Source: Rhodohalobacter sulfatireducens
GTDB lineage: Bacteria > Bacteroidota > Rhodothermia > Balneolales > Balneolaceae
NCBI RefSeq assembly: GCF_022012475.1
Contig: NZ_JAKLWS010000003.1
Coordinates: 186,001-250,000, forward strand
DNA length: 64,000 nucleotides
Direction of reading: 5' to 3'
Shown: positions 9,145 to 63,491 of the stretch, in pieces
Layout: each line of letters starts with the position of its first letter
How positions within the stretch are numbered: position 1 is the stretch's first letter
Translations under genes and position numbers: made by a program
Notes under the pieces: generated by a model
The model's database searches: none
What the model was told of the DNA's origin: nothing
The model's input: only the letters and a program-made list of their open reading frames with translations

Positions 9145-9218
9145 GCGCCCGTAGCTCAACTGGATAGAGCGTCTGACTTCGGATCAGAAGGTTGAGGGTT
9201 CAAATCCTTCCGGGCGTA
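9145..9218 (+). tRNA. tRNA-Arg (anticodon TCG)
   Basis: A full cloverleaf can be drawn. The acceptor GCGCCCG pairs with CGGGCGT, the D arm is GCTC..GAGC, the anticodon stem TCTGA/TCAGA has loop CTTCGGA (anticodon TCG), and the T arm GAGGG/CCTTC carries loop TTCAAAT. The discriminator base is A and CCA is not encoded. Length is 74 nt. Confidence 0.95.
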
Positions 9219-9221
9219 CTT

Positions 9222-9286
9222 ACTGAATATCGAATAGCGAACAAGGAATTTCGAATGTTGAAGTATTTCAGAATTCAATATTCAGT
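9222..9286. repeat. Palindromic interspersed repeat between the two tRNA genes
   Basis: ACTGAATAT at 9222-9230 is inverted at 9278-9286 (ATATTCAGT), with further CGAAT/ATTCG and GAATTTCGAATGTTGAAG-type words inside. This composition (strings of GAATATCGAAT and its complement) is typical of short palindromic repeats scattered in many Bacteroidota intergenic regions. It is probably non-coding; a reading frame through it is not convincing. Confidence 0.55.
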
Positions 9287-9311
9287 GTTCGACATTCGTC
9301 ATTATTCTTCT

Positions 9312-9385
9312 GCACCCGTAGCTCAACTGGATAGAGTACCTGACTACGAATCAGGCGGTTACAAGTTCGAATCTTGTCGGGTGTA
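9312..9385 (+). tRNA. tRNA-Arg (anticodon ACG), integration target
   Basis: The cloverleaf has acceptor GCACCCG/CGGGTGT, D arm GCTC..GAGT, anticodon stem CCTGA/TCAGG with loop CTACGAA (anticodon ACG, normally deaminated to ICG), and T arm ACAAG/CTTGT with loop TTCGAAT. Length is 74 nt without encoded CCA. The 3' half of this gene is duplicated 36.6 kb downstream, marking it as the attachment site of island 1. Confidence 0.96.
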
Positions 9386-9388
9386 CTT
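9341..9388. other. attL core of island 1 (tRNA 3' end)
   Basis: These 48 bases, from the anticodon stem to three bases past the mature tRNA end, are repeated without mismatch at 45960-46007. A direct repeat of a tRNA 3' end with a tyrosine integrase next to it is the standard signature of site-specific island integration. Confidence 0.93.
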
Positions 9389-9395
9389 TTCTTTT

Positions 9396-9427
9396 AAAGC
9401 CGGAAATTTAGCGATTTCCGGCTTTTT
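9396..9427 (+). terminator. Terminator downstream of tRNA-Arg(ACG)
   Basis: A perfect 12-bp stem (AAAGCCGGAAAT, 9396-9407, with 9414-9425) has a 6-nt loop and ends in a T tract. It begins eight bases after the att core, so it is island DNA that now terminates the chromosomal tRNA transcript. Confidence 0.9.
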
Positions 9428-9524
9428 TTATGCCTTTAGGTTAAACAAACGGTGATTTTATTGTAATTGAATATTACCAAATATCACCTTATTTGTATTT
9501 AAAAGTACAATTTGGTAACATCTT

Positions 9525-9577
9525 TTGGGGTACACGTTAGGGGTACAAATCCCGTTGGGGTACACGTTTGGGGTACA
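9525..9577. repeat. Integrase arm-type site candidates, left end of island 1
   Basis: Two 23-bp direct repeats (TTGGGGTACACGTT followed by A or T and GGGGTACA; 9525-9547 and 9555-9577) differ at one base. Each contains two GGGGTACA words. The 22-bp form recurs at 45888-45909, just inside the other end of the island. Placement beside both att cores fits arm-type integrase or excisionase binding sites; this role is inferred. Confidence 0.75.
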
Positions 9578-9607
9578 CAAATTATTAATCAAAGAGCATA
9601 TGATTTC

Positions 9608-10807
9608 ATGGCATATCTTAAAAAAAGAAGAAATACATGGTACGTGCGATATCATATAGTTGAGTACGGAAAAGAGTTAACTATTACCCGTACACTAAAA
9701 ACTAAGCGAAAGGATGTTGCTGAAAAACGTCTTGAGAAACTTGAAAAGCTGGAAAAGAATGGCCGGATACATCCGCTTAGTGATAATTTCAATCCTATTG
9801 AAATATTGAATCGCCTTGAAGAAGAGGAACAAAATACGAAATGCAATACAGTCCAGGAATCGCTTGAAGCCTTCCTGAAATCGAAGAAGCATTTATCAAG
9901 TAAAACGGTTGAAGCGTATGAATGGGCTATACAACACTTTATCGATCACAATGGAATTGCTTTTCACCATCCCATTGAAATGCGAATAGATCATTTTGAG
10001 AATATCATTTTTAAAGATGATATATCGATTCAGACAAGGCATTATTACTTCCGTCATTTTCGTGCTTGGTGGAACTGGATGCTGGACAATAACATTGTTG
10101 ATTTTGACTTCTTTGATGCGATTAAAAAGAAGATGCCTAAAAAGAAAGAATCTACCAGGCCTAAGATGATTACGCTCGAAGAACTCTACCAGGTGTTTAA
10201 AGCATACGGTGAAGAACTGGTACGAAAATCGAAACGGCCAGATTTTGACGCTAAGAAGGTTCAATATTGGTTCCGGCCTATTATGTGCCTTTACACCTTT
10301 GCTGGATTGCGGAAGCATGAGGCAGGGTATAGTTCGGATCTGCCTTACTCCGGACTGAAAGGAGAGAACTTGATCTTTAAGAACAAAGAACTGGAGTATA
10401 TATACATACCGCCAGGGAAGGGACGCAAAGAGAAAGAGATACCAATCCATCCAATCCTGAAAAAAGAACTGGATCGATATTTGAAAGTGCGCGGTGAAGT
10501 AGACCAGGATGAATATGTCTTCATCTATTTCGGTGGCCGATTTAAAGGAAGGCCGGTAAGCGGTCAAGTAGTGTACAAAGAGTTTAAGCGTTATGCAGAA
10601 CTTGCCGATGTGCCATCTTCGCGTACACTGCATGGAATGAGACACCGTGCGGTTACGTCCTGGATTGAACTCGGGCTTTCAACTGCCGATGCTGCATTCT
10701 TAGCTGGACACTCCAACCAACGTGTTACTGAAAAATACACTCACCTAACCGCGAAACACCTGAAAGACAAAATGAACCGGCTTACAAATAAAAAAGATAG
10801 CGATTAA
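9608..10807 (+). CDS. int: Tyrosine recombinase, integrase of island 1
   Basis: Phage-type integrase of 399 residues that recombines the tRNA-Arg attachment site. The N-terminal MAYLKKRRNTWYVRYH is an arm-binding-like beta region, and a SAM-like core-binding domain lies at about 85-180. The C-terminal catalytic domain has the complete set R235, H342, R345, H368 and Y377 (GLRKHEA, HGMRHR, GHSNQRVTEKY). I start at the ATG at 9608 because upstream codons in frame run through the 23-bp repeats, which look like binding sites rather than protein. It is the first gene inside the island. It resembles the second integrase at 46184 and, more closely, a dead fragment near 45000. Confidence 0.95.
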   Translation: MAYLKKRRNTWYVRYHIVEYGKELTITRTLKTKRKDVAEKRLEKLEKLEKNGRIHPLSDNFNPIEILNRLEEEEQNTKCNTVQESLEAFLKSKKHLSSKTVEAYEWAIQHFIDHNGIAFHHPIEMRIDHFENIIFKDDISIQTRHYYFRHFRAWWNWMLDNNIVDFDFFDAIKKKMPKKKESTRPKMITLEELYQVFKAYGEELVRKSKRPDFDAKKVQYWFRPIMCLYTFAGLRKHEAGYSSDLPYSGLKGENLIFKNKELEYIYIPPGKGRKEKEIPIHPILKKELDRYLKVRGEVDQDEYVFIYFGGRFKGRPVSGQVVYKEFKRYAELADVPSSRTLHGMRHRAVTSWIELGLSTADAAFLAGHSNQRVTEKYTHLTAKHLKDKMNRLTNKKDSD

Positions 10808-30035: not shown

Positions 30036-31103
30036 TTAATCTTCTTGTGAAAGTTCAAATATTTTGTACCAGTAAAAAAATGCTTCCGGATCGGATTTTT
30101 TGAGCTTGTTGACCCTGGTATTTATCGGCTCTTCAATGATCCAATCTTTCATGTTGGTGTCAGAATCGAAGCGCTCAATGGAATCAGAATCTTTTCTTAA
30201 AAGAGTAGCCATGTATGCCGCTTTCGTTGCGTGAGTGATCGCTTTTTCAAGGTGGTAACTTTCCGAAAAAATAAAGCTCTTAATGCGCCGAATCCCTGAC
30301 TGAAGTTCATCGAAGTCGGCCTTCCCACCTTTTCCTCTTGTAGCTATGCTGAGTGAGGTTTGGTAGATATCTTCAATGACATCTTCAGGCTTCAGTCCAT
30401 CCTGATCCCGATAGGCCAATTCAGCAATAGCAAACTTGTGGAAGGTCTCCTTCACTACCTGTAGATCTTCGGCCACATCAAACAGATTGCCAATATCGTA
30501 GAGCTGTTTGATGATCTCCATACTCATGCTGTCATCGCCCTTGAAGTAGGGGATACCCGTTGTATTGGGAGCGAATGCTGTGAGTTTATCTCCAAGCAGA
30601 TCTTCAATGGACGGAATATCCACCATGAGCGGATTTCCGGTTTGAGGTACAAAAGGAGACTTCACCGGGAGCTGTTCCATCTTGGTGTAGTTTAGATCCT
30701 CGAAAAGAATATCGAGCAATACATATTCTTCATCGCCGCCGGAAGGACGCACCGGTGTATAATACAGCTTGTAGTGAGCTTTCTCGATATCGGACCGCGC
30801 ACTGCGTTCCTGTAATTCAAACTTGGTGAAGTTTTGTTCTTCAACCACTGACGTCAGAATTTCGTCCATGTTGATCTCTTTATCCGGAAGAATAATGTCG
30901 ATATCGATGGACAATCGTTTCGTAGAATTGAAATGAAGCATTAATGCCGTTCCGCCTTTAAAAACGAAGGAGAGGTCCTGCTTCACCAAACCTTCCAACA
31001 GCAACAGGGCACGAATTACTTTCTCGATGAGCAGAGGATCGGCTTTATGCTCCCCGGCTACCTGCTGTACCCATTCGTCTGTAAGTTTTGATTGGTCGAT
31101 CAT
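30036..31103 (-). CDS. abiEii: AbiEii-type nucleotidyltransferase toxin
   Basis: Toxin component of a type IV toxin-antitoxin/abortive-infection pair, 355 residues. The nucleotidyltransferase signature is intact: FKGGTALMLHF (GG at 50-51) followed by RLSIDIDIIL (D67xD69). Later conserved segments VLLDILFE and SIEDLLGDKLTAFAPNTTG are typical of the AbiEii/AbiGii family. These enzymes transfer nucleotides to tRNA or other targets and stall growth. It lies 15 bp downstream of the cognate antitoxin-like gene, between brxC and pglX, and has the same GC content as BREX. The pair is therefore an old resident of this BREX locus. Confidence 0.92.
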   Translation of the reverse strand: MIDQSKLTDEWVQQVAGEHKADPLLIEKVIRALLLLEGLVKQDLSFVFKGGTALMLHFNSTKRLSIDIDIILPDKEINMDEILTSVVEEQNFTKFELQERSARSDIEKAHYKLYYTPVRPSGGDEEYVLLDILFEDLNYTKMEQLPVKSPFVPQTGNPLMVDIPSIEDLLGDKLTAFAPNTTGIPYFKGDDSMSMEIIKQLYDIGNLFDVAEDLQVVKETFHKFAIAELAYRDQDGLKPEDVIEDIYQTSLSIATRGKGGKADFDELQSGIRRIKSFIFSESYHLEKAITHATKAAYMATLLRKDSDSIERFDSDTNMKDWIIEEPINTRVNKLKKSDPEAFFYWYKIFELSQED

Positions 31104-31118
31104 ATCAAATGTTCGGCA

Positions 31119-31907
31119 CTAATCGTTGTTTAGTGCCAATAATTGGAGGTTGGTTAGATAATTCTTGAGTTTTTCTTTCCGCTTTCTTCGGTCTGCATAT
31201 CGAAGGAGCGTTTTTTCATTAATGGAATATTGATTGAATGCTTCCTGGAAAATTCGTTTTCTCTCTACACCTTGGTAGGGTTCGTACAACTCCGTATCAC
31301 AAAACAGATCTACCAAAATTTTTTCGATCGTTACAGTTGTAACATTTTCAATTTTCTGCAACGGACTCTCTGAGATCAGAGTCTTTACAATGATGGTATG
31401 CTCCTGGTCATAGAGATAGTTTTGGATAATTTCTTTTCCTGGATTTAAATAGACCTGGAATTTTTTACTTCTCAGTAAGTTGAATACAGAACTGGTTACA
31501 TCCCGCTCCGTTTCAACGATAGTATTAAAATTTGAGGGTTGGTGTAACATCAAGTGGTTTAGAAAAGAGGTATCCCATACGCAAACTTCAGCATAGGGCA
31601 AGTCCTTATCTATACTTTTAAAAATTGACTTCAAATGGTGGTCAATCTTTGGAGTAAAATTCTGACTTTCTCCAAACTTAAAGACACCCTTACCGATTCT
31701 TGTTAAAACCCCTTTCTGTACCAACTCATACACCCGCCAGTTGATCGTAGATTTTTTTAAGTCCTTTTCAAACGAACGGTAGAATTTCGTGATATCACTT
31801 GTAGTAAAGTGATCTTTCGCTTCAAAATGATCCTTGAGTTCTTCAATATGTAAATTGTAGTCTGCGAATGCTTTAGGCTTAAACAGTTGAATTCCAATTA
31901 TTGGCAC
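31119..31907 (-). CDS. abiEi: AbiEi-type antitoxin (winged-helix regulator)
   Basis: A 262-residue partner of AbiEii. The N-terminal winged helix-turn-helix spans about residues 30-80 (HFTTSDITKFYRSFEKDLKKSTINWRVYELVQKG, then the wing LTRIGKGVFKFG). The C-terminal domain (about 85-262) is of the DUF6577/AbiEi_C type, with SPLQKIENVTTVTIEKILVDLF. Such proteins neutralise the toxin without direct toxin binding and repress their own promoter. It is 36 bp after brxC. Because it is inside the BREX operon, repression by it could also modulate pglX expression; that is inference. Confidence 0.83.
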   Translation of the reverse strand: MPIIGIQLFKPKAFADYNLHIEELKDHFEAKDHFTTSDITKFYRSFEKDLKKSTINWRVYELVQKGVLTRIGKGVFKFGESQNFTPKIDHHLKSIFKSIDKDLPYAEVCVWDTSFLNHLMLHQPSNFNTIVETERDVTSSVFNLLRSKKFQVYLNPGKEIIQNYLYDQEHTIIVKTLISESPLQKIENVTTVTIEKILVDLFCDTELYEPYQGVERKRIFQEAFNQYSINEKTLLRYADRRKRKEKLKNYLTNLQLLALNND

Positions 31908-46183: not shown

Positions 46184-47347
46184 ATGGCAAGTTTAAAGAA
46201 GAGAGGTAAGAACTATTCAATTGTATTTAAGAAGCATATTGACGGTAAACCGATTACGAAAACATATGCTATTGGAACCAAATACAAAAAGATTGCAGAA
46301 CAAAAAAAGGTTCATTATGAAAAGTTGTATGACTCAGGGAAGATTAATCCTTTTGATCCAGAATGGAATTTAAAAGATTATGAAGAAGAACAAATCCAGG
46401 AGTCAAGCCCATCGGAGTATTCAGTAATATTAGATAGGCTTATTGACGATTTTTTAGATAGTAAAACTGGTGTGACTCAAAAAACGAAGGATACTTATGA
46501 AGAAATTCTGAAAAGGTTTTCTCGTGAAGTTGGTAAAACAATGCCAATCCAAAGAGTAAATAGTGATGATGTAGCAAACTTTTGTTTGCGCAAAGATCTT
46601 GCGAATGCTTCAAAGAAAAATTATCACAGGCATCTTAAAGCTTTTTTTAATTGGTTAGTAGAAAAAGGGATTATTGAGAAAAATCCTTGTAAAGACGTAA
46701 GCCTCCCAAAAGTAAAGGACAATCTTTCTGAAAAAATTATTGAAGAGAGGCATCTCGATTTGATTTTTGAATCTTATAGAAAGGTTCATGCTAAAAAGAG
46801 AAAGAATGGAGATTTGAATACCTCTATGTCAAAAAAGAATTGGTTTAGGCCTTTAGTGATGACCGGATTTTACACTGGAATGCGCAGAAAAGAGTTAATT
46901 CAACTGAAATGGGCAAATGTTCATTTAAATGATCGGATGATTCGGATCACCGATACAAAGAGTGGTAAGGAAAGAACAGTACCCATATTTGATCCACTGT
47001 ATAAAATCTTGAAGGCCTGGTATAGATTGAATGGGAGACCAAGCTCAGGTCTAGTTTTTCCGCATCCTAATTCTACTTCAAAGCATGAATTTGCTCTTAC
47101 AGGTGACCATATCTATAGGGTTTTTAAGAGATTCGTGAAAAAAGCGGGACTTAAAAAGACAATTAATATTCACAGTTTACGGCATTCGTGCGCTACATTT
47201 TTGTTCAGGAATGATTTTGACAGCCTTGAAATAAAGAAACTATTAGGGCATAGCAGTTTGGAAGTAACAAATCGGTATGTACAGTTAGTTACAACTGACT
47301 TACTTAATAAAGCAGAAAAAACCGGCTTAATCACGGAGATGAAATGA
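46184..47347 (+). CDS. int: Tyrosine recombinase, integrase of island 2
   Basis: Phage-type integrase of 387 residues. N-terminal MASLKKRGKNYSIVFKKHIDGKPITKTY is an arm-binding beta region, and a SAM-like core-binding domain spans about 80-175. The catalytic set is complete: R234 (GMRRKE), H330 and R333 (HSLRHS), H356 (GHSSLEV) and Y365. It shares fold and N-terminal style with the island 1 integrase but is clearly a different protein. It presumably uses the same tRNA-Arg site. The stop overlaps the next gene (ATGA at 47344), so the two are translationally coupled. Confidence 0.94.
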   Translation: MASLKKRGKNYSIVFKKHIDGKPITKTYAIGTKYKKIAEQKKVHYEKLYDSGKINPFDPEWNLKDYEEEQIQESSPSEYSVILDRLIDDFLDSKTGVTQKTKDTYEEILKRFSREVGKTMPIQRVNSDDVANFCLRKDLANASKKNYHRHLKAFFNWLVEKGIIEKNPCKDVSLPKVKDNLSEKIIEERHLDLIFESYRKVHAKKRKNGDLNTSMSKKNWFRPLVMTGFYTGMRRKELIQLKWANVHLNDRMIRITDTKSGKERTVPIFDPLYKILKAWYRLNGRPSSGLVFPHPNSTSKHEFALTGDHIYRVFKRFVKKAGLKKTINIHSLRHSCATFLFRNDFDSLEIKKLLGHSSLEVTNRYVQLVTTDLLNKAEKTGLITEMK

Positions 47348-52499: not shown

Positions 52500-54749
52500 A
52501 TGCATACATTTCTTACAAAATCTAAATTCACTCACTGTTTAGAATGCCCGACCAAGTTATACTACAAAAACCATGAAGATGAGTACGTCACCTCGCAAGA
52601 TGACAATGATTTTCTGCAAGCTCTTGCCGACGGCGGAATACAGGTAGGGGAACTGGCTAAACTGTACTATCCCGGCGGGACCGAAATAGAATACTCGAGG
52701 GATAAGTCTATTTCACTGGATCAAACAACAGAATTGCTAAAACTCGATGAGATAATTATTTACGAAGCAGCTATTCGATATGGGTTAACCTACGCTTTAG
52801 TTGATATCTTAGTAAAAAAGGGGGACCGGATTGACTTGATTGAAGTGAAGTCCAAATCGTGGGATGAAGAAAAAGGGTTTTACAAGCGAAATGGAGATAT
52901 CTATCCGGATTGGCATAAATATCTCTACGATGTAGCTTTTCAAACATGGGTGATGCAAAAAGCCTATCCTGATTACAATATTTGTCCTCATCTTATGCTG
53001 ATTGATAAGGGTGTTCCGACGAGTGTGGAAGGGCTGCATCAATACTTTAAGATCATAGAGAATGAAGAGGGCCGTAGTGAAGTCAGGCTGACCGAAAACC
53101 GATCGGATATCCAACTTGGTGATCCGATCATGACAACCATTGACGTCTCGGATGAGGTGGCACTTATTTTTAATGACGAGGCCAGGAAACCAGAAAGCGA
53201 GCTGGAAGCCAGAGGGTTTGATGGATGGATAGACGGACTGTGTGAGTTGATCAGTAGGGATGAAAAGTACCCGGTTAGTATTGGAGCGAAATGCCGAAAC
53301 TGCGAACACCGGGTGAACACTGATAAACTGAACGGAAAGAAAGCCGGGTTTAACGAGTGCTGGAAAGAAGCGCTGAACTGGAGCGACAAAGAACTGGCCA
53401 AACCTCATGTCTTTGACGTGTGGTACGCCAATTCCAAGAAATATATGGATGATGAAATCTATCTGATGGAGGAGATTTCTCCGGAATATATTGGGACAGA
53501 TGAGAAAACGCTCTATAAACAGCCCATTTGGAATGATGGACGCAAACAACGGCAACTGGCACAGGTCATGAAAATGACGGGTCGCCATGATGATAGTGAA
53601 GTCATTCTGCCCGGCCTCTTCCACGAAATGGATAGTTGGACCTACCCGCTTCACTTTATCGACTTTGAGGGAATTTCTCCGGCCATTCCTTTTCATAAGG
53701 GATGTTATCCATACAAAAAGATTCCCTTTCAGTTTTCCATGCATAACGTATATAGAGATGGGAGAGTAGAACATGCCGCCGAGTGGGTGGACAAACGTAA
53801 GGGAGTTTATCCAGGGTTCGATTTTGTGCGAGAACTAAAAAAGGTTCTGGAGCAGGATGAAGGCAGCGTGTTTATGTATTATCATTATGAAAAGACCACT
53901 TTGAATGATGTGAAAAGCCGTTTGTTGGAATCGGAAGAGCCAGACAAAGAAGAATTGATTACATGGATCGATACGTTGGTATTCGAAGGAGCACCGCGTT
54001 ATTTAATAGACCAACAGAGATTAGTTGTAAAATATTACTATTCGGTGCACATGGGCGGTTCCAACAGCATTAAAGATGTATTACCGGCAGTCCTGAATGA
54101 AAGTGAAGCGCTCAAGCAGATTTACACAAAGCCGTACTCAGGGCTGAGCCTGAAGAACAAGGTGCTGTATGAAACCGATGAAAACGGAATGGCAATCAAT
54201 CCCTATAAACTGCTCGATCCGGTAGGTTATGGCATTCCGGATGAATCCGAGGATGTGGAAATTGAACTGGAATCCGGCGATCGAATTACCGAAGGCGGAA
54301 CGGCTATGATGGTCTGGGCACGCATGCAGTTTGATGATGTGTCGGATGAAGAGCGCGAAGATGTGTTTGAAGCCTTATTAAGATATTGTGAGTTGGATAC
54401 CTTGGCTATGGTGATGATTTATCAGCACTGGGATTCGTTAAATAATGAAACTCGATTGACTGATAAAGAGCGCCTGATAAATTACTGTATAGAAAATGAT
54501 AGAGTTTGTCCGATGCCTAAAAAATGGAATGAACTTTTTAAAGTATTACCAAATAAAAAAAGAGAGGGTTTAAAAAATATCCCCTCCATGCCTCTTATTT
54601 TGGCTGCATGGCATAATTCCTCAAACCTCGAAAAAACAGAACGATTAAAAGAGCATATTGAATGGGCAGATAGACACGGAAAATTGGAAACGGTAGCTAA
54701 GTTTATATTTTCAATAAAAGAAGATGAGTGGTATTGCTCAGATAGTTAA
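52500..54749 (+). CDS. Cas4-like Fe-S nuclease fused to DUF2779 (RNase H-like) domain
   Basis: A 749-residue two-part protein. The N-terminal half is a Cas4/AddB-like PD-(D/E)XK nuclease: early HCLECPTKLYY (C14, C17), D near residue 102 (ALVDILV), E-V-K in DLIEVKSKSW (about 115-124), and late cysteines KCRNCEH (about C265, C268) and ECW (about C287), as expected for an iron-sulfur cluster. The second half is DUF2779, an RNase H/DEDD-like exonuclease opening with HFIDFEG (about 385-391), with a later FEALLRYCELDTLAMVMIY that supplies the final acid. Such proteins occur in defence islands; the exact substrate is unknown. It is followed after 18 bp by a small membrane protein gene. Confidence 0.82.
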   Translation: MHTFLTKSKFTHCLECPTKLYYKNHEDEYVTSQDDNDFLQALADGGIQVGELAKLYYPGGTEIEYSRDKSISLDQTTELLKLDEIIIYEAAIRYGLTYALVDILVKKGDRIDLIEVKSKSWDEEKGFYKRNGDIYPDWHKYLYDVAFQTWVMQKAYPDYNICPHLMLIDKGVPTSVEGLHQYFKIIENEEGRSEVRLTENRSDIQLGDPIMTTIDVSDEVALIFNDEARKPESELEARGFDGWIDGLCELISRDEKYPVSIGAKCRNCEHRVNTDKLNGKKAGFNECWKEALNWSDKELAKPHVFDVWYANSKKYMDDEIYLMEEISPEYIGTDEKTLYKQPIWNDGRKQRQLAQVMKMTGRHDDSEVILPGLFHEMDSWTYPLHFIDFEGISPAIPFHKGCYPYKKIPFQFSMHNVYRDGRVEHAAEWVDKRKGVYPGFDFVRELKKVLEQDEGSVFMYYHYEKTTLNDVKSRLLESEEPDKEELITWIDTLVFEGAPRYLIDQQRLVVKYYYSVHMGGSNSIKDVLPAVLNESEALKQIYTKPYSGLSLKNKVLYETDENGMAINPYKLLDPVGYGIPDESEDVEIELESGDRITEGGTAMMVWARMQFDDVSDEEREDVFEALLRYCELDTLAMVMIYQHWDSLNNETRLTDKERLINYCIENDRVCPMPKKWNELFKVLPNKKREGLKNIPSMPLILAAWHNSSNLEKTERLKEHIEWADRHGKLETVAKFIFSIKEDEWYCSDS

Positions 54750-54767: not shown

Positions 54768-55268
54768 ATGAATTTTATACTTCGATACAAATTTTCTCTT
54801 TTGCTAATTATAGGGGTAACAGGTGCATTTTTTTTGATTGGTACAAATGGTGTATCTGATAAATATTTCTTTAGTATTATAGGTACATTAATAACACTAT
54901 ATATCGGGTTGACACAATATCAATTAAATAACGATAAAATATTTAAAGAGTTATTTAACAATTTCAACCAAAGGTACGACGAAGAATTTAATGATCTAAT
55001 CAACGAGCTCTCTAGCAATGGTGATAAAAGAGTGTTAAATCGAAAAGAAAAAACACTTATTATTGACTACTTAAATTTGTGTGCTGAAGAGTATTTGTGG
55101 TATAAAAAGAGCCGGATTCCTAAAGATGTTTGGACAGCTTGGAAAAATGGTATTGAATCCAATCTAGAAATTGAAGAAGTAAGAGAAGTTGTAAGCCATG
55201 AGTTGATAAAGTTTAAAGACTCGTATTATGGCCTTTTTGATGAAATCAATTTTAAATCCGATAGATAA
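54768..55268 (+). CDS. Hypothetical membrane protein
   Basis: A 166-residue protein with two N-terminal membrane helices (FSLLLIIGVTGAFFLIGT and YFFSIIGTLITLYIGLT, about 9-27 and 32-50). A helical cytoplasmic tail of about 115 residues follows, with DEEFNDLINELSSNG and EEYLWYKKSRIPKDVWTAWKNGI. This topology resembles DUF4760/SLATT-like sensors or effectors found beside nucleases in defence loci. It lies between the DUF2779 gene (18 bp away) and the reverse transcriptase leader. Co-transcription with the nuclease is likely; a role with the reverse transcriptase is possible but unsupported. Confidence 0.65.
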   Translation: MNFILRYKFSLLLIIGVTGAFFLIGTNGVSDKYFFSIIGTLITLYIGLTQYQLNNDKIFKELFNNFNQRYDEEFNDLINELSSNGDKRVLNRKEKTLIIDYLNLCAEEYLWYKKSRIPKDVWTAWKNGIESNLEIEEVREVVSHELIKFKDSYYGLFDEINFKSDR

Positions 55269-55369
55269 AACTCTATTATTTTGGTGTATAAAATTATTTT
55301 AAGTAGGTTTAAAAAACAACAAGTAGTAGAAGCTGATTCATTACGTTTGTTAATGTTAAATGTCTACTA

Positions 55370-55620
55370 AGAAATATGTTAGTAGAGTCGTTTCATTACT
55401 GAAATGCAAGAGAAATCTTGCGCCAGTATGCATTCCAACTCTGGAATAGCGCTGCGTATCAGTGTGATTAACGATGTAGCCATAGTGATTAATTTCATTA
55501 TGTATAAAGTTACATAAATAATTCCTATAAAGAGGGGCGGTACTCTGCGAGAGTATCGTGTTAGCATGTATGAATCAATGCCTAGGCATTAAAAGCGAGC
55601 CCCGATACTACTTGTTGTTT
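55370..55620 (+). ncRNA. Structured non-coding RNA candidate upstream of the reverse transcriptase
   Basis: Several stable stems fit in the space before the RT gene. One is a 6-bp hairpin with a GAAA tetraloop (55406-55421). A compound stem GTATGC/GCGTAT (55426-55431 with 55454-55459) encloses ATTCCA/TGGAAT (55432-55447). An 8-bp hairpin lies at 55539-55557. A 5-bp hairpin with loop CTAG lies at 55577-55590. A GGGGC/GCCCC pair (55534-55538 with 55599-55603) closes the last two. GTGATTAA occurs twice (55464, 55485). No plus-strand gene fits. Position and structure match the template RNAs of DRT2/DRT9-type systems. The ends are approximate. Confidence 0.6.
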
Positions 55621-55625
55621 TTATT

Positions 55626-57161
55626 ATGGAAAATAAGCCCTACAGAAGTGATAAAGATTGGTTTAAACCAAAGTTTTACCAGCATATTGGCTTACCCTTA
55701 ACACAGAAAGATAGAGATTGGGTAGAAAAATATGTACAAAATCCTAAAAATATAGCAGCTCACTCTTTTCTACCATTCATATACAGAAAGATTGAGAAGA
55801 AAAAGTTTAGAAGAGATATACATTCGGATGGAACTCGATCATATAAGAGAGTGAAGAGTTCGAAAACGAGGCATATATATTATGCGAGTCACCTAGACTC
55901 TCAAATATACAGTTACTATTCGGAGCTTTTAAGAAAACCTTATGAATCTAAACTGCAAGAATTAGGAATTGGTGACTGTGTTACTGCTTACAGAAGGATA
56001 CCGGTCAAAGAAGAGAAAAGAAATAAATGTAATATAGATTTTGCACGAGAAGCATTTGAGTTCATTAGAGAATGGGATGAAAGTGAAGTAGATGTAATTA
56101 CTCTAGACATTAAAAGTTTTTTTGACTCTTTAGATCATAGCATCTTAAAAAAAAGGTGGTATAATCTGATTGGTTCTAAAAAGAACCTAAGAGCGGATCA
56201 CTATAATATTTTTAAAAATCTTACAAGATACTCATTTATTAACGAGAATCAGCTTTTTAAAGAATTCTGTGATGATATCATTGTACGAATGGCTGATGGT
56301 TCACTGAAAAGGAAGAGAATAAATAGGTCAAGATATTTAAACGAAAAGAATGCCATTGCTTACTGTTATAAGAAAGAATTTCAAGACAGGGTTAAAAATA
56401 AAGGATTGATTAACGAATCAACTCTAGAACAGGGCTCAAAGACAGGAAGAAAAATTCCTGGAAAGATCCGAACAAAAGGTATTCCACAAGGAACACCCTT
56501 AAGTGCAATGTTGGCGAATATATATATGATAAATTTCGACCATTCTATGTATCAGGAGGTAAAAAAAATGGGAGGTGTCTATCGAAGATATTCGGATGAT
56601 ATGATAATCATTTGTAGCCCTGTAGATTCTAAGAAACTTGAAGAAGGTGCGATTGAACTTATAGAACGATCTAAGCTGAAAATACAACCTAAAAAAACTA
56701 GAAAGTTTAGGTTCAAAAAAAGTGAAACTGGTTTTAATTGTTCTGAATGGATGCCAGAGTCAAAGATTTGGTATCCCAATACAAATTTGGAATATTTAGG
56801 TTTTGAATTTGATGGCAAAAGAGCTTTAATCAAATCATCAAGTATTTCTAAGTTTTACAGAAATATGAAAAGATCTGTTCGAAGAAGTGCATTTTTTGCA
56901 AAGTATGGGAAAAGCAAAGACGACAATATTTATAAAAGAAGATTATTTAAAAGGTATTCCCATTTAGGAGCGGGTCGAAGAAAAATTTATAAGAGGGATA
57001 AAAATGATAATACTAAATGGTTTATCAGCTATAAATATGACTGGGGTAATTTTATAACTTATGTTCGTCTTGCTGAAAATGCTTTCAATAGTTCTGATAT
57101 CAGAGGACAATTAAAGAATCATTGGAAGAAGTTAAATAATGAGATTGATAAGCATGAGTGA
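55626..57161 (+). CDS. Defence-type reverse transcriptase (DRT2/DRT9-like candidate)
   Basis: A 511-residue reverse transcriptase of the unknown-group/defence type. Motif A is VITLDIKSFFDSLDH with catalytic D161. A long basic insertion (about 185-280) precedes the motif B-like block IPQGTPLSAMLANIYM (about 286-301). The active site is YSDD at 322-325. A thumb-like basic C-terminus (about 390-511) is rich in R/K/Y (RRSAFFAKYGKS, HLGAGRRKIYKR). The N-terminal WFKPKFYQHIGLPLTQKDRDWVEKYV and RHIYYASHLDSQIYSYY are typical of single-gene DRT RTs. It has no maturase, integrase or HNH domain, so it is not a group II intron protein. It follows the structured RNA by a few bases and converges with hsdR, 12 bp apart. 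The exact DRT class is not certain. Confidence 0.82.
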   Translation: MENKPYRSDKDWFKPKFYQHIGLPLTQKDRDWVEKYVQNPKNIAAHSFLPFIYRKIEKKKFRRDIHSDGTRSYKRVKSSKTRHIYYASHLDSQIYSYYSELLRKPYESKLQELGIGDCVTAYRRIPVKEEKRNKCNIDFAREAFEFIREWDESEVDVITLDIKSFFDSLDHSILKKRWYNLIGSKKNLRADHYNIFKNLTRYSFINENQLFKEFCDDIIVRMADGSLKRKRINRSRYLNEKNAIAYCYKKEFQDRVKNKGLINESTLEQGSKTGRKIPGKIRTKGIPQGTPLSAMLANIYMINFDHSMYQEVKKMGGVYRRYSDDMIIICSPVDSKKLEEGAIELIERSKLKIQPKKTRKFRFKKSETGFNCSEWMPESKIWYPNTNLEYLGFEFDGKRALIKSSSISKFYRNMKRSVRRSAFFAKYGKSKDDNIYKRRLFKRYSHLGAGRRKIYKRDKNDNTKWFISYKYDWGNFITYVRLAENAFNSSDIRGQLKNHWKKLNNEIDKHE

Positions 57162-57173
57162 AGGTAACTAATC

Positions 57174-60041
57174 CTAAGCCACCATCTCATCAACAAACAC
57201 ATTCACAAACTCATCCATCTTACTGATGATGCGTTGCGAAATTCTATGTGCTTCTAAAACACTGGGTCGTTCTTCCAAGCATTCTCGAATTTCCTTGTTC
57301 AATGGTTTTTTACCTGTAAATACATAAGTATTTACTAAGTTCTTGAATTGCTTCTTGTCAAGGTTTTCCTCTTCACAGATTTTGTTGAGGGCCAGCACTT
57401 TTTGTTCCTGCCAGTATTTATCGAATTCATCCTGAATGGCATCCACATCATCGATATTTGGTAACTGCTCTTCAATGAATTTCTCAATGAGTTCTCGCTT
57501 GCTGCGCAGTTCTACATCTCCGGCAATGATATCGAGGATGGCTTTCTTCTGTTTGTCTTTATCTGAGCCTTCTGCATGCTTCATCTTGGCGATGAGCTTG
57601 AGGATGTAGGCTACATTGATTTCATCCCGGTGGATTAGCTCCAGTTCAAAATCCACGTCTTCCAAGATGGATACTTTTTCTTTTTGGTGATCATGCTTAA
57701 CCATTTCATGCAGATCGAGGTATTTGCTCTTGTAATCTTCGAACTGTTGCTCTTCCATGGATAGATCATCCCATTCAAAGTCCGCAAAGGTTTTAAGAAC
57801 ATTGAAAATCCGCATGAGATCACGGAAAGCTTTGATAAAGGCAAGCTGATCATCTTCTGAAACCAGGTTGTCTACACTTTTAACGGTTGGAACGATTTGA
57901 AGCAACTCGATAAACGAACTGTTGAACCGTTCTACGATCTCGTCATATTCTGGGACAAAGATCTCTTCTTTCGCATCTTTATTGGAGAATAATGTCAGGG
58001 CTTCATCGGTTCTTTCTTTTAGATTTCTGAAACAGAGAATGTTACCCTGAGACTTTTGCTCATTGATGACTCGGTTGGTTCTTGAATAGGCCTGAATGAG
58101 CCCGTGGTATCTTAGATTCTTATCTACATAAAGTGTATTGACCTTTTTTGCATCAAAGCCGGTGAGAAACATATTTACTACCAATAGGATATCAATTCGA
58201 TCTTTGTCCTGAAAGCTTTCTTTTTCCCGTTCTTTAATACGCTTGCTGATGTCCTTGTAATAATTTTCATAGGACTTTGTATCGCAGGTGGAAAAATTCG
58301 TGCCAAACATTTCATTATAGTCAGCTATGTATTCATCCAGTTTTTCGCGGGTGTGGGAGGTTTGATATTTCCCTTTCGGTTCAGCAGCTAAATTGAAATC
58401 TGGAAGTTCGCCGGTGGCGTCAGAATCATCTTCATTCGTTTCATAGGAAAAGATCGTAGCGATTCGAAGATCGTGGTCGCCCGCTTCTTTCTTTTCTTTG
58501 AATAGATCATAGTAAGTAATAAGCTCATCAACCCAGTTTACTGCAAAAATTGCCGTGTATGCTTTGCTATGCGTTTTTCGGTCATGCTGAGCAATGATAA
58601 AGTCCGCAATATTACTGAGCCTTACCTGATCGCTCATAGCTTCCGCGCGATCAATATCTTCTACATTGATATCGCCACCCACAGTTGGCTTTCGCTTTAT
58701 CGTACTGTAATACTCCAGGGCGAATTTCAAAACGTTCTTATCCCGGATGGCATCGGTGATCACATATTTGTGCAGACATTCATCGAACAGGTCTTTGGTC
58801 GTACGTTTGCCCAATTCATTTTTGATGGCGTTATCTGCAAAGATGGGCGTTCCGGTGAAGCCAAATAACTGACAGTCATTAAAGAAATTGATAATTCTCT
58901 GGTGGGTATCGCCAAACTGACTGCGGTGACATTCGTCAAAGATGAATACGATCTTTTTATCCCGCAGGTATTCGATCTGTTTATGATATCGCTTTCGTTT
59001 GATGGCAAAGTTCAGCTTCTGAATAGTGGTTACGATCAGTTTATTATTCACATCCTTGAGCTGATCGACCAAGCCTTTGGTATTCTCAGTCATGTCGATG
59101 CTGCCTTTTTTGAAGGCATTGAACTCGTTGGCCGTTTGATAATCCAGGTCTTTGCGGTCGACTACAAATACCACTTTGTGTATCTTCGGCTGGTTCATGA
59201 TCACCTGACTTGCTTTAAAGGAGGTCAGCGTTTTTCCTGAACCGGTGGTGTGCCAGATGTAGCCGTTCTTCTCGGAGTTTTTCACCTGATCGATAATGGC
59301 TTCCACCGCATAATACTGATAGGGGCGAAGGACCATCAAGATCTTGAAGGTCTCATTCATTACCATGTATTTGGCGATCATCTTGCCGAGGTGATTTTTA
59401 TTCAGAAATGCATCGGTAAATTTCTCGAGCTTGGTGATGTTGTTGTTCTTCTCATCGGCCCAGAAAAAGGTTTGTTTGAACGACTGCTTCCGGTTATTGG
59501 CGTAATACTTGGTATTTACACCGTTGCTGATCACAAAGATCTGTACATACTGGAATAGGGCAGAATCGCTCCAAAAGGAGTGCCGTTGGTAGCGGTTGAT
59601 TTGGTTAAAGGCTTCTTTGAGTTCCAGGCCCCGACGTTTGAGTTCGATTTGAACAAGGGGAAGACCGTTTACCAGCAGCGTCACATCGTACCGAGTTTTA
59701 TAGGTGCCCTCTGCGGTGACCTGATGCGTTACCTGAAAGTGATTTTGTGTCCAGTCCTCGCTGTTGAAAAAGCGAACATAAAGTGTTTGTTCATCTTCTC
59801 GCTTTAAAGCAAAGCGATCTCGCAGTGTTTTGGCCTTTTCAAACACATTGCCTTTGGACAAGTGATTCAGGATCTGATTGAATTCCTGATCTGAGTAAGT
59901 GTGGCCGTTGAAGTTCTCTAATTGCTGTTTCAGATTGGCAAACAGTTCTTCCGAATCATTGATCTTTACATACTCATAGCCCAGATTGATTAATTGCTTA
60001 ACCAGCTCTTGCTCGAGGATATGTTCGGATTGTCTACTCAT
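57174..60041 (-). CDS. hsdR: Type I restriction enzyme R subunit
   Basis: Restriction and translocase subunit of a type I system, 955 residues. The nuclease domain has D119 (RYDVTLLV) and E133-x-K135 (VQIELKRRG). The SF2 motor has Walker A WHTTGSGKTLTSFKAS (about 262-277), DECH box FIFDECHRSQFG (about 365-376) and motif III GFTGTPIF. Late motif VI lies in QAYSRTNRVINEQKSQGNI. The C-terminus is the helical HsdM/S-binding region. The HsdR start overlaps the AbiC-like stop by 8 bases, so these genes are coupled. Confidence 0.95.
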   Translation of the reverse strand: MSRQSEHILEQELVKQLINLGYEYVKINDSEELFANLKQQLENFNGHTYSDQEFNQILNHLSKGNVFEKAKTLRDRFALKREDEQTLYVRFFNSEDWTQNHFQVTHQVTAEGTYKTRYDVTLLVNGLPLVQIELKRRGLELKEAFNQINRYQRHSFWSDSALFQYVQIFVISNGVNTKYYANNRKQSFKQTFFWADEKNNNITKLEKFTDAFLNKNHLGKMIAKYMVMNETFKILMVLRPYQYYAVEAIIDQVKNSEKNGYIWHTTGSGKTLTSFKASQVIMNQPKIHKVVFVVDRKDLDYQTANEFNAFKKGSIDMTENTKGLVDQLKDVNNKLIVTTIQKLNFAIKRKRYHKQIEYLRDKKIVFIFDECHRSQFGDTHQRIINFFNDCQLFGFTGTPIFADNAIKNELGKRTTKDLFDECLHKYVITDAIRDKNVLKFALEYYSTIKRKPTVGGDINVEDIDRAEAMSDQVRLSNIADFIIAQHDRKTHSKAYTAIFAVNWVDELITYYDLFKEKKEAGDHDLRIATIFSYETNEDDSDATGELPDFNLAAEPKGKYQTSHTREKLDEYIADYNEMFGTNFSTCDTKSYENYYKDISKRIKEREKESFQDKDRIDILLVVNMFLTGFDAKKVNTLYVDKNLRYHGLIQAYSRTNRVINEQKSQGNILCFRNLKERTDEALTLFSNKDAKEEIFVPEYDEIVERFNSSFIELLQIVPTVKSVDNLVSEDDQLAFIKAFRDLMRIFNVLKTFADFEWDDLSMEEQQFEDYKSKYLDLHEMVKHDHQKEKVSILEDVDFELELIHRDEINVAYILKLIAKMKHAEGSDKDKQKKAILDIIAGDVELRSKRELIEKFIEEQLPNIDDVDAIQDEFDKYWQEQKVLALNKICEEENLDKKQFKNLVNTYVFTGKKPLNKEIRECLEERPSVLEAHRISQRIISKMDEFVNVFVDEMVA

Positions 60042-60675
60042 CTTCTATGCCTTGTTCATCTTTATAATCCCTGAGTTGCTCTTCGTAAGCAACTCTATCC
60101 TGATAAAACAATGCCTCGCTATAGCTTAAGCTAAAATCAAGATAGGCTTCATCAAGGTAATCGTTGAAATCAAAATTTTCCTCATATTTGATGTCCTCTT
60201 TATGTGATAGATCAATCTTAAAAAAGTGTTCTAAGAGATAATGGGCAATAGAGTCTGTTACTCCCATGATCATTTTGGCACTTTGTTTTGTACTAACAAA
60301 TTCCTTTGGCGATGATTTACCGTGAGAGATATCTCCTCTGTCATTTCTTATTTCTCCCATTCTTTTGACAAGATTATAACCTTGTCTGCTAAAAGGTTCT
60401 TCTATTGGATTTTCAGTTGTACTCAATCTCCAGCAGGCATTCTTAAATAATTCTTGTACATCAAAACTGTTAATCTCTTTTTTTGTGATAGAATCATCTA
60501 GCCTAACTAATATCGTTTTACAGATTCCTTCGATTAATGATTTTGAGCATTCAATGGATATGTCAGGGTTGCTGCTTACATTCTCCTCAATTTTTTCAAT
60601 GATGTTTTTGTAGTACCCAAATTCATTATGAATATTTTCATGCTTATCGATGATATTTCGGGTTAGAGTCATCAT
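60034..60675 (-). CDS. AbiC-type HEPN protein inside the type I R-M operon
   Basis: A 213-residue helical protein. EIRNDRGDISHGK gives R110-N111 and H118, a HEPN-type RN...HG motif, in the abortive-infection C-terminal (AbiC/AbiJ C-term) family. The preceding CSKSLIEGICKTIL is also typical. HEPN proteins are RNases or RNA-binding effectors that act when restriction fails. It sits between hsdS (1-bp gap) and hsdR (8-bp overlap) in the same strand direction, so it is a true operon member rather than a bystander. Confidence 0.8.
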   Translation of the reverse strand: MMTLTRNIIDKHENIHNEFGYYKNIIEKIEENVSSNPDISIECSKSLIEGICKTILVRLDDSITKKEINSFDVQELFKNACWRLSTTENPIEEPFSRQGYNLVKRMGEIRNDRGDISHGKSSPKEFVSTKQSAKMIMGVTDSIAHYLLEHFFKIDLSHKEDIKYEENFDFNDYLDEAYLDFSLSYSEALFYQDRVAYEEQLRDYKDEQGIEDE

Positions 60676-60676
60676 A

Positions 60677-61897
60677 TCAGACGAACATTTTCTGGAGTAA
60701 TCCTTTTTTGAATTTTTCAGCTAACTCCAGCTTTTGATTTACTGTTTTTATCTTTTTTGAAACCGTGTTAATAAAATCAGTAATCATTTCTCGTTCTTTT
60801 TCAGATGGAACTGGAATAGGTAGTTTTTGGAAATCACCGACAGTAATATTCATTCTGTCATGCCGAGCTCCAAAATTGGCCACACTGTGCATGTATCGAT
60901 GCCATAATGTGGTTTCAAAGAAGTATTCAAAAAAATCGAGATGGTTTTCATTTATCCTAAATACAGAGTAGAGTGGTGACATTACACCCGTTTTGAGCTT
61001 ATTTCTTTTAATGGGCCCAACCGGCGCCTCACTGGAGATTCTAGGGTTATATACGAAGTCATCCTTTTTAACAATGTAATATCCACCGAGATTACTCTTG
61101 TTTGCGATACTTTTATCGAAGTATTCTGTTTGACTGACTACTCCCTGAACAGCAGAATTCGTTAATACAAAATCATACTCTTCATCTTCATTCTTATCTG
61201 TAATCCGATCTGAAATTTCACCTAATTCTTTGTATTTCCATTCAGGAAAATTCTTTCTTTTCTCATCTTTGAACCGGATTTCCTGAGAAAAGAGTTTTTG
61301 CATTACCCCTTTTTTGTATTCTTCTAGAAGCTCCTTCTTTCTCCTAAAATGCTGAATTTTCAGATCTACGGAGGAAAGGAAATCGGCTATTTTTTGCTGT
61401 TCATTTCTTGAAGGTAAATTCAAGTTCAACAACTTTAGTTGTGTTGAATACAGGTGTATAACAGATGAGCCTTGAGCAAATCTTGCTATATCTTTGCTCT
61501 TCTTTCCATTAAGATAATATGCTAAATATGTTGAATCTTGATCACTTTTGATGATGTTAATATCGCCACCTAATGCTATCCCAGACCTTCTAACACAGGA
61601 AGCTGTAGCAATATCAATTGCAGTTTCACCTGATGAAGGAATGATTAGGTCATTTGCTTCACTTAATTCTAGATCTTTTTCATTTAAATTCGTTTTAGAA
61701 ACTGTGTGATCTATTAATTCACTGTATGTGGTATATAATTCACCATAACGAATACAATCAGTTTTTCCATCCTCAATAACTTCATCTTTAGAAATCCCTT
61801 TACCCTTACTGAATTTTCCAATTTCACTTAATAAGAAAATACTGTAATCATTACTAAATTCTGGGAATCTCAATTTTGGCTCTGACTTTTTCTTCAT
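60677..61897 (-). CDS. hsdS: Type I restriction-modification specificity subunit
   Basis: DNA sequence-recognition subunit, 406 residues from the ATG at 61897 (MKKKSEPKLRFPEF); an upstream in-frame ATG at 61915 would overlap hsdM and add six residues. Two target-recognition domains (about 10-170 and 215-375) are each followed by a conserved helix (LPSRNEQQKIADFLSSVDLKI and PVPSEKEREMITDFINTV). The C-terminal helix has KLELAEKFKKGLLQKMF, the repeat partner of ELLEEYKKGVMQKLF. It is more AT-rich than hsdM and hsdR, as is common for a recombining specificity gene. Confidence 0.94.
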   Translation of the reverse strand: MKKKSEPKLRFPEFSNDYSIFLLSEIGKFSKGKGISKDEVIEDGKTDCIRYGELYTTYSELIDHTVSKTNLNEKDLELSEANDLIIPSSGETAIDIATASCVRRSGIALGGDINIIKSDQDSTYLAYYLNGKKSKDIARFAQGSSVIHLYSTQLKLLNLNLPSRNEQQKIADFLSSVDLKIQHFRRKKELLEEYKKGVMQKLFSQEIRFKDEKRKNFPEWKYKELGEISDRITDKNEDEEYDFVLTNSAVQGVVSQTEYFDKSIANKSNLGGYYIVKKDDFVYNPRISSEAPVGPIKRNKLKTGVMSPLYSVFRINENHLDFFEYFFETTLWHRYMHSVANFGARHDRMNITVGDFQKLPIPVPSEKEREMITDFINTVSKKIKTVNQKLELAEKFKKGLLQKMFV

Positions 61898-61898
61898 C

Positions 61899-63491
61899 TT
61901 AAAAAGGAGCCTCAATCCCTAATTCTTTGCAGTAGTTGGCAATGGCTTCATCCGTTTTCTGGATATTATTATCCAAAGCTTTCAGTTCTTGGGCAACAGC
62001 TTGCAGGTCCACCACTTCTTCTTCCTCAAAGGTATCCACATAGCGGGGAATGTTGAGGTTATAATCGTTTTCGGCAATTTCATCCCGGTTGGTGATATAG
62101 CTGTATTTTTCTTCCAGCTCTCCGGTGTATTCAGAGTCCCAATTGCCACTCACATACTCTTTGTAGGTCTCAATAATCTTAGAAATGTCTTCCGGTCGGA
62201 GCTTATGCTGCGTGGATACTTTCTCATAATGCTCACTCGCATCAATAAAAAGCACATGCTCAGAGTGTGTACGCTGTTTTCTAAGCACCAGAACACAAGT
62301 GGGAATTGAGGTGCCAAAAAAGATATTGGCCGGCAAGCCAATCACCGCATCCAGGTAATTCAGCTCCTTAATAATATGCTCACGAATGGTTCCCTCACCG
62401 CCACTTCTAAACAACACGCCATGAGGTAGCACACAGGCCATGGTTCCGTTATCATCCAACTGGTGAATCATGTGCTGAACGAAAGCAAAATCGGCCCGGC
62501 TCTTAGGAGCCAGTTTTCCATACGCAGAAAATCGGTCGTCATTCATCTTCAGCGGGTCGGAACTCCACTTGGCCGAGAACGGGGGATTGGCCACCACGGC
62601 TTCAAATTTCTTATCAATATGCTGAGGCCGTTCCAGTGTATCCTCATTCTTAATATCAAACCGGCTGTAATGCACATCGTGCATAATCATGTTCATCCGG
62701 CAGAGGTTATAGGTGGTCGGGTTGCTTTCCTGCCCAAAATACTCCCCAACTTCATCTACTTCCCGTGCCACACGGAGCAGCAAAGATCCCGATCCACAAG
62801 TGGGATCGTACACGTTTTTAAGTCGCTCCTTACCTACCGTAACCAGCTTGGCCAACACCGAGCTCACTTCCTGAGGCGTATAAAACTCACCGGCCTTTTT
62901 CCCGGCACCACTGGCAAACTGCCCGATCAGGTATTCGTAGGCATCACCTAACACATCGTTTTCAGGATTGTCGAGCTCAAAATCCACCTCATCCAGTTTC
63001 TCCATCACCTTCACGATAATTTCGTTACGGTCCTCCGGAGTTTTACCCAGCTTGCTGCTGTCCAAATCCAGATCTTCAAAAAGGTTTTCAAAATCTTCCT
63101 CACTGTCAGTACCCATCGTGCTTTGCTCAATATCAATCAGCACCTTTTGGAGATCATCCAGAATGAATTTGGCCTTACCGTTGCCATTGCCCCGCATCAC
63201 CATGGTACTAAATAGCTCACCCGGTTCCAGGAAATAACCCAAATCATCAATGGCATTTTCCTTTACCGCTTCCAGATACTGTTGTCCCGGTTTGGTATTC
63301 AGGTTAATCGAGTGGTAGGTCATGTTATCCGGTGCCAGAATCTTGTTGGCGTACCGAAGCATCTTTTCACTCAAATACTTGTAAAAAATAAACCCAAGAA
63401 TATAGTCCCTGAATTCATCTGCCCCCATTTTGCCCCGAAGGTTATTAGCTATATCCCAAAGCTTCTGATTGAGCTTTTGTTTTTCTGTCAT
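61899..63491 (-). CDS. hsdM: Type I restriction-modification methyltransferase subunit
   Basis: N6-adenine methyltransferase of 530 residues. The N-terminal helical domain opens LWDIANNLRGKMGADEFRDYILGFIFYKYLSEK, the family standard. SAM motif I is YDPTCGSGSLLLRVA (about 224-238), and motif IV is VVANPPFSAKW (about 298-308). With HsdS it modifies host DNA; with HsdR it restricts. It is the first gene of the operon and is divergent from the TIR gene, with a 216-bp promoter gap. Confidence 0.96.
   Translation of the reverse strand: MTEKQKLNQKLWDIANNLRGKMGADEFRDYILGFIFYKYLSEKMLRYANKILAPDNMTYHSINLNTKPGQQYLEAVKENAIDDLGYFLEPGELFSTMVMRGNGNGKAKFILDDLQKVLIDIEQSTMGTDSEEDFENLFEDLDLDSSKLGKTPEDRNEIIVKVMEKLDEVDFELDNPENDVLGDAYEYLIGQFASGAGKKAGEFYTPQEVSSVLAKLVTVGKERLKNVYDPTCGSGSLLLRVAREVDEVGEYFGQESNPTTYNLCRMNMIMHDVHYSRFDIKNEDTLERPQHIDKKFEAVVANPPFSAKWSSDPLKMNDDRFSAYGKLAPKSRADFAFVQHMIHQLDDNGTMACVLPHGVLFRSGGEGTIREHIIKELNYLDAVIGLPANIFFGTSIPTCVLVLRKQRTHSEHVLFIDASEHYEKVSTQHKLRPEDISKIIETYKEYVSGNWDSEYTGELEEKYSYITNRDEIAENDYNLNIPRYVDTFEEEEVVDLQAVAQELKALDNNIQKTDEAIANYCKELGIEAPF

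Follow-up and report, generated by a model that had tools for sequence, protein, structure and literature searches.

A DRT2 reverse transcriptase system of Rhodohalobacter sulfatireducens points to a divergent Bacteroidota clade with predicted neo genes and locus-specific jump motifs

Which class of defence-associated reverse transcriptase (RT) is encoded on a 64,000-nucleotide (nt) stretch of the Rhodohalobacter sulfatireducens genome (contig NZ_JAKLWS010000003.1, positions 186,001 to 250,000; hereafter the window, whose own numbering is used throughout), and what might the structured RNA directly upstream of the RT gene serve to template? An earlier note on this DNA had proposed a DRT-type system, perhaps of a new subtype. 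In Klebsiella, two ACA motifs flank a 120-nt template from which the DRT2 RT makes concatemers (Wilkinson et al. 2024, PMC12039810; Tang et al. 2024, PMC11100668); the repeat length is divisible by three, no stop codon interrupts the antisense strand, and a sigma-70 promoter whose boxes stand 17 bp apart is re-formed at each repeat junction (PMC12039810; PMC11100668). By comparing the window locus with its relatives, we assign it to DRT2 and predict that it too encodes a Neo protein across joined repeats, with template borders and a junction promoter of a different kind.

The RT gene (55626-57161, forward strand) is an intact open reading frame of 511 amino acids (aa), in which both LDIKSFFD and YRRYSDD are intact (YSDD at residues 322-325), in line with the LDIKSFFD and YSDD motifs of the earlier note. 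PADLOC named it Drt2 (473 bits, E = 3.4 × 10−142; next family, 87.7 bits), and the RTs of UG17, DRT3a and UG39, the next-best families by profile, reached only 65-88 bits. The NCBIfam Drt2 model (NF041746) was matched over its full length (1-416 of 416) at 384.1 bits, with the next model at 73.6 bits, although this score falls 6 bits short of the 390-bit cut-off for the equivalog name and to that extent speaks against the assignment. The RT did not group with those of group II introns or retrons: it scored under both cut-offs (group_II_RT_mat, 73.6 bits against 300; retron_St85, 58.5 bits against 235), and structures from these groups also scored far lower. An AlphaFold2 model of the RT (pLDDT 91.4) superposed on the Klebsiella DRT2 structure 9c0i with a Z score of 35.6 (2.1 Å across 418 of 425 residues, with the next entry at Z 21.9), DRT2 structures ranked first in Foldseek with DRT9 structures second, and the solved structures nearest in sequence were DRT2 as well. 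On these three lines (PADLOC, nearest solved sequences and structure comparison), we consider it nearly certain that the system is DRT2.

A scan for relatives with an alignment-based profile returned 80 loci, mostly from Bacteroidota, and further ones came from genome searches and a plasmid collection; a scan of genome contigs with the single protein found no relatives, and viral contigs yielded one distant relative. In a tree of 87 rows, a branch with support of 99 split the loci with Bacteroidota-type junctions from those with ACA motifs and sigma-70 promoters (Vibrio, Marinomonas and others), and the window RT fell within a clade adjoining the ACA-type DRT2. This clade is almost wholly Bacteroidota, holds dozens of relatives and carries an insertion of about 30 residues. 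The distance from motif A to the QG motif is 113 aa in the window RT and 101-120 aa in most clade members measured, against 77-85 aa on the ACA/Klebsiella-type side, in agreement with the long basic insertion that had been noticed between these motifs. One clade member, on Marivirga plasmid p1 (L010, 3001-4452), is split into several frames; tblastn joins eight pieces of it.

To compare templates, we aligned the sequences lying 5′ of the RT gene at 54 clade loci, which form 31 clusters at 75% identity. Two sites, here called m1 and m2, have one short sequence in common at each locus, and that sequence changes from locus to locus (TATACC, ATTTC, TATTTTAC, TATTTC, ATTC and others), with an in-register identity of 4.0 out of 6 within loci against 3.04 when sites were swapped between loci (0/10000 as high). 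The templates that these sites bound are 114-162 nt long, and in an alignment blind to reading frame the distance from m1 to m2 was divisible by three in 26 of the 31 clusters (P = 1 × 10−8). When the antisense strand was read as a concatemer, one constant phase was free of stop codons in 25 of these 26 clusters, against 0.77 expected from shuffles, and the other two phases were open in 0 and 1. Pairwise comparisons of the same RNAs showed contrasts between regions: all 22 indels in the template were of 3, 6 or 9 nt, whereas outside it only 2 of the 27 indels in the 5′ domain and 1 of the 46 in the scaffold had lengths divisible by three, and within the template frame third codon positions differed most (610, against 498 and 488); these comparisons are mutually non-independent, which does not explain the contrast between regions within the same RNAs. 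The predicted Neo had a positive mean hydropathy in 26 of 26 clusters, and an in-frame ATG stood 3-27 nt past the −7 box of the junction promoter (described below) in all 24 clusters examined. As a positive control, gammaproteobacterial DRT2 loci put through the same scan gave units of about 120 nt bounded by ACA, with junctions of the TTGACA type.

Across the repeat junction, TTG-N20-TAnnTT was present in 21 of 26 clusters, and any other spacing in at most seven. This element resembles the Bacteroidota sigma-A consensus given in published papers (TTTG at −33 and TAnnTTTG at −7). The full motif, TTTG-N20-TAnnTTTG, was not enriched at this exact spacing in the 5.1-Mb host genome, so our promoter claims rest on the published consensus and the conserved spacing. 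It occurs there 12 times, fewer than the 33 occurrences of these boxes at a 26-bp spacing, a pattern that would fit avoidance of accidental promoters.

In the window, alignment with relatives places m1 (ATTAC) at 55395-55399 and m2 (ATTCC) at 55521-55525, both on the forward strand, as the 5′ and 3′ boundaries of the template and the two copies of the jump microhomology. The predicted template, or neo proto-gene, thus occupies 55395-55520 and is read on the reverse strand as a repeat of 126 nt, or 42 codons (IYVTLYIMKLITMATSLITLIRSAIPELECILAQDFSCISVI), that stays free of stops over the junctions. On that strand, a −33-like CTTG (55407-55410) lies downstream of a −7-like TAACTTTA (55505-55512) until repeats are joined, and only across the junction do the two stand 20 bp apart; in-frame ATG codons begin 6 and 21 nt downstream of TAACTTTA. 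An ACA-bounded template as in Klebsiella was considered and rejected, as the ACA pairs in 55270-55640 yield neither a triplet length nor an open frame. For want of a usable pair we did not file the window in the Klebsiella-type subgroup, and the ACA motif was not taken to define the whole DRT2 family.

Several observations weigh against this interpretation, both for the window and for the clade. The window has comparatively weak signals: ATT is all that m1 and m2 have in common, the junction promoter CTTG-N20-TAACTTTA matches 8 of 10 consensus bases, a second antisense frame is also open, and registers of 114 nt (TTAC) and 102 nt (TTTCATTA) likewise keep the frame. Elsewhere in the clade, 5 of the 31 clusters gave a length not divisible by three in the blind alignment, and for some of these no convincing register was found, among them the Cyclobacteriaceae loci L027, L036 and L039, which keep the conserved m1 and m2 sites but at 148 nt. 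The 114-nt and 102-nt registers of the window have neither a homologous position nor a promoter; we chose 126 nt because relatives align there and because only this length gives the N20 spacing. On this comparative evidence, the window DRT2 very probably relies on template jumping to make Neo, with borders at or close to those given, and a register of exactly 126 nt is likely.

The RNA that holds the template extends over approximately 55312-55622, directly 5′ of the RT gene, and its helices and hairpins lie on the forward strand. A putative promoter, TTTG-N20-TAGGTTTA (55280-55311), which is a match to the Bacteroidota sigma-A-like consensus only, would put the start of the non-coding RNA (ncRNA) near 55316. 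The region 55309-55625 (317 nt) folds at −104.9 kcal/mol, against −65.6 kcal/mol (standard deviation 4.7) in dinucleotide shuffles (z = −8.35; 0 of 100 as low), and no Rfam family matched the upstream RNA region. The structured RNA proposed in the earlier note is real, including its GAAA-tetraloop hairpin (55406-55421) and closed multibranch, but it is longer than proposed and starts near 55312, with the closing helix P1, and not at 55370.

P1 closes the RNA end to end through 17 bp between 55312-55328 and 55606-55622, and its 3′ strand finishes with a run of T beside the RT start codon. Relatives differ in sequence here yet still pair: their own strands pair at −22.9 kcal/mol, against −13.0 kcal/mol when swapped between loci (best of 5,000 swaps, −16.0), and the RNA 5′ and 3′ ends as a whole at −32.8 against −22.4 kcal/mol. 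A second long-range helix, P3, joins TGATTCAT (55334-55341, followed by a conserved ACGTTT) to ATGAATCA (55570-55577); among 26 relatives it was 95.5% paired, with a covariation of 0.653 against 0.232 when shuffled and at most 0.171 when slid, a count in which rows stand at fixed anchors or were set by hand for some loci and bulged relatives, the window included, were omitted. The 3′ scaffold is pseudoknotted, since GGGGC (55534-55538) pairs with GCCCC (55599-55603) across P3 and the pairing covaries: among loci it takes the forms GGGGC/GCCCC, GGAGC/GCTCC, GTGGC/GCCAC, GTAGC/GCTAC and GGGAC/GTCCC, 100% paired, with a covariation of 0.610 against 0.289 for strands picked by eye. Further hairpins lie directly 5′ of the template (CTACTAA..TTAGTAG, 55364-55385) and, in the scaffold, at the positions of the DRT2 ‘tower’ (GGTACTC..GAGTATC, 55539-55557) and ‘buttress’ (AATGCC..GGCATT, 55577-55590). 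Conservation of the upstream RNA among relatives, whose absence would have spoken against the reading in the earlier note, is thus evident as strong covariation in P1, P3, the pseudoknot and the end pairing.

From these features and from what is established for Klebsiella, we propose the following mechanism. The RT would hold the ncRNA and, upon infection, copy the template (55395-55520); at the template 5′ end, the 3′ end of the complementary DNA (cDNA) would leave m1, re-anneal to the matching m2 and restart copying, giving a head-to-tail array of 126-nt antisense repeats. Every junction would set the −33-like box 20 bp from the −7-like box, such that a host-type promoter exists on the joined repeats and is lacking from the chromosome, because it is the junction that brings the boxes to this distance. 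That promoter would then drive an endless, stop-free hydrophobic frame, Neo, with 42 residues per repeat, which would halt the growth of the infected cell. The RT family, the fold and covariation of the RNA, the paired microhomologies, the triplet length, the single open phase with its in-frame indels, the promoter spacing and the start codon are read from sequence comparison, and the infection-triggered copying, second-strand synthesis, transcription, translation and toxicity leading to growth arrest are carried over from Klebsiella DRT2.

Could the same locus work in another way? A DRT2-related RT might make cDNA that acts as DNA (a sponge, a guide or retron-like multicopy single-stranded DNA), the antisense frame being a by-product of composition. 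A paper on DRT2 diversity, which found ncRNAs to be predictable in divergent clades and Neo annotation challenging there, suggested alternative mechanisms and so leaves room for such a reading. We nevertheless judge it improbable, as composition does not yield one constant open phase in 25 of 26 clusters where 0.77 are expected, nor a template with indels solely of 3, 6 and 9 nt between flanks that do not share this limit, nor the fixed spacing of start codon and promoter.

Kinship with DRT9 and DRT10 was also weighed, as these too pair a single RT with an upstream structured ncRNA that serves as template, DRT10 also adds repeats, and DRT9 structures came second in Foldseek. Their products are homopolymers or short, telomere-like tandem repeats from a short ncRNA template, with no protein-coding concatemer, whereas the template here exceeds 100 nt and is coding; moreover, the RT scored far lower for DRT9 than for DRT2 by profile (PADLOC, 52.7 against 473 bits) and by structure (TM 0.4 and Z 18, against TM 0.73-0.87 and Z 35.6), making a system of this type extremely unlikely. 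That the upstream RNA is merely a 5′ untranslated region or attenuator controlling the RT gene would fit the placement of P1, which closes on the RT start before a T run and whose 3′ strand, across the loci that were compared, stops 0-14 nt short of the RT start and usually does so in T-rich sequence. Such a role would leave the triplet lengths, the open phase, the microhomology and the junction promoter unexplained, and as a full account we find it very unlikely. An attenuator function may well hold in addition to the DRT2 mechanism, and P1 may act as an attenuator or as a processing site that splits the ncRNA from the RT messenger RNA.

With template jumping by a DRT2 RT as the preferred reading, a member from outside the Bacteroidota bears on how the promoter evolves. 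The locus of the gammaproteobacterium Psychrobacter immobilis (L020), nested in the Bacteroidota clade, has the microhomology ATAC and a 108-nt stop-free unit, the junction of which forms a perfect TTGACA-N17-TATAAT (12 of 12; no other clade member exceeded 10, with 17 registers tried per locus). A 114-nt register is open there too, without such a promoter; given this second register and a single case, the promoter switch is suggestive, not proven. In the second non-Bacteroidota row, a Desulfobulbaceae metagenome-assembled genome (L018), no sigma-70-type switch was seen, and the register is ambiguous. We lean towards the view that the jump motif and neo promoter of DRT2 are free to evolve, with the promoter tracking the host sigma factor and P1 perhaps serving as an attenuator or processing site. 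If this is true, any locus-specific microhomology serves for jumping, and Bacteroidota members build TTTG-N20-TAnnTTTG-like promoters and the Psychrobacter member a sigma-70 one.

How far, then, does the clade depart from Klebsiella DRT2? The two share the RT family and fold, a single RT placed 3′ of a pseudoknotted ncRNA, a microhomology-bounded template of triplet length, an endless antisense hydrophobic frame and a promoter rebuilt at the junction. They differ in the jump motif (locus-variable against ACA), the template length (114-162 against 111-129 nt), the junction promoter (TTTG-N20-TAnnTTTG-like against TTGACA-N17-TATAAT) and the RNA 5′ of the template, which is about 80 nt in the clade, where P1 and P3 close it onto the 3′ end, against 28 nt in Klebsiella; the RT is also about 85 aa longer, with some 30 of these residues between motif A and QG. 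The idea of a new subtype thus stands in part: the clade is separate, with a jump motif, RNA architecture and promoter type of its own, but its predicted mechanism is that of DRT2. The DRT2 family and mechanism are known already; as far as the open-licence literature shows, supplements aside, the predicted neo genes of this clade, its variable jump motif, its closed RNA architecture and its Bacteroidota-type promoter are new. For a large divergent DRT2 clade, the comparison now predicts where the template begins and ends, which sequence is repeated and which start codon and promoter are used, and it offers a caution for gene finders, in that a conserved protein may lie on the wrong strand, broken over a repeat junction, within a non-coding RNA.

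The DRT2 genes stand in a defence island. Just 5′ of the ncRNA, a gene at 54768-55268 encodes a 166-aa protein with likely N-terminal membrane helices and a weak PADLOC match to ThsA (E = 0.0019); it is probably outside the system, because it is not found upstream of the RT of the nearest relative. DRT10 (an RT with SLATT), a candidate raised by an upstream protein with two transmembrane helices, was ruled out by the RT score and by the absence of the gene 5′ of that relative’s RT. Tail to tail with the DRT2 RT lies a type I restriction-modification operon (HsdR, HsdS and HsdM; 57174-63491, reverse strand), in which HsdR and HsdS flank a 213-aa Abi_C-domain protein. A complete type I BREX cluster (BrxL, PglZ, PglX, BrxC, BrxB and BrxA) occupies 15641-36651, and within it an AbiE toxin-antitoxin pair (30036-31907) separates PglX from BrxC. 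The intervals 9145-10807 and 46184-47347 hold two tRNA-Arg genes with an integrase-like gene straight after them and, further along, a second integrase-like gene; the island has the look of a pair of adjacent mobile elements carrying defence genes. A 749-aa DUF2779 protein is also encoded inside the island, at 52500-54749.
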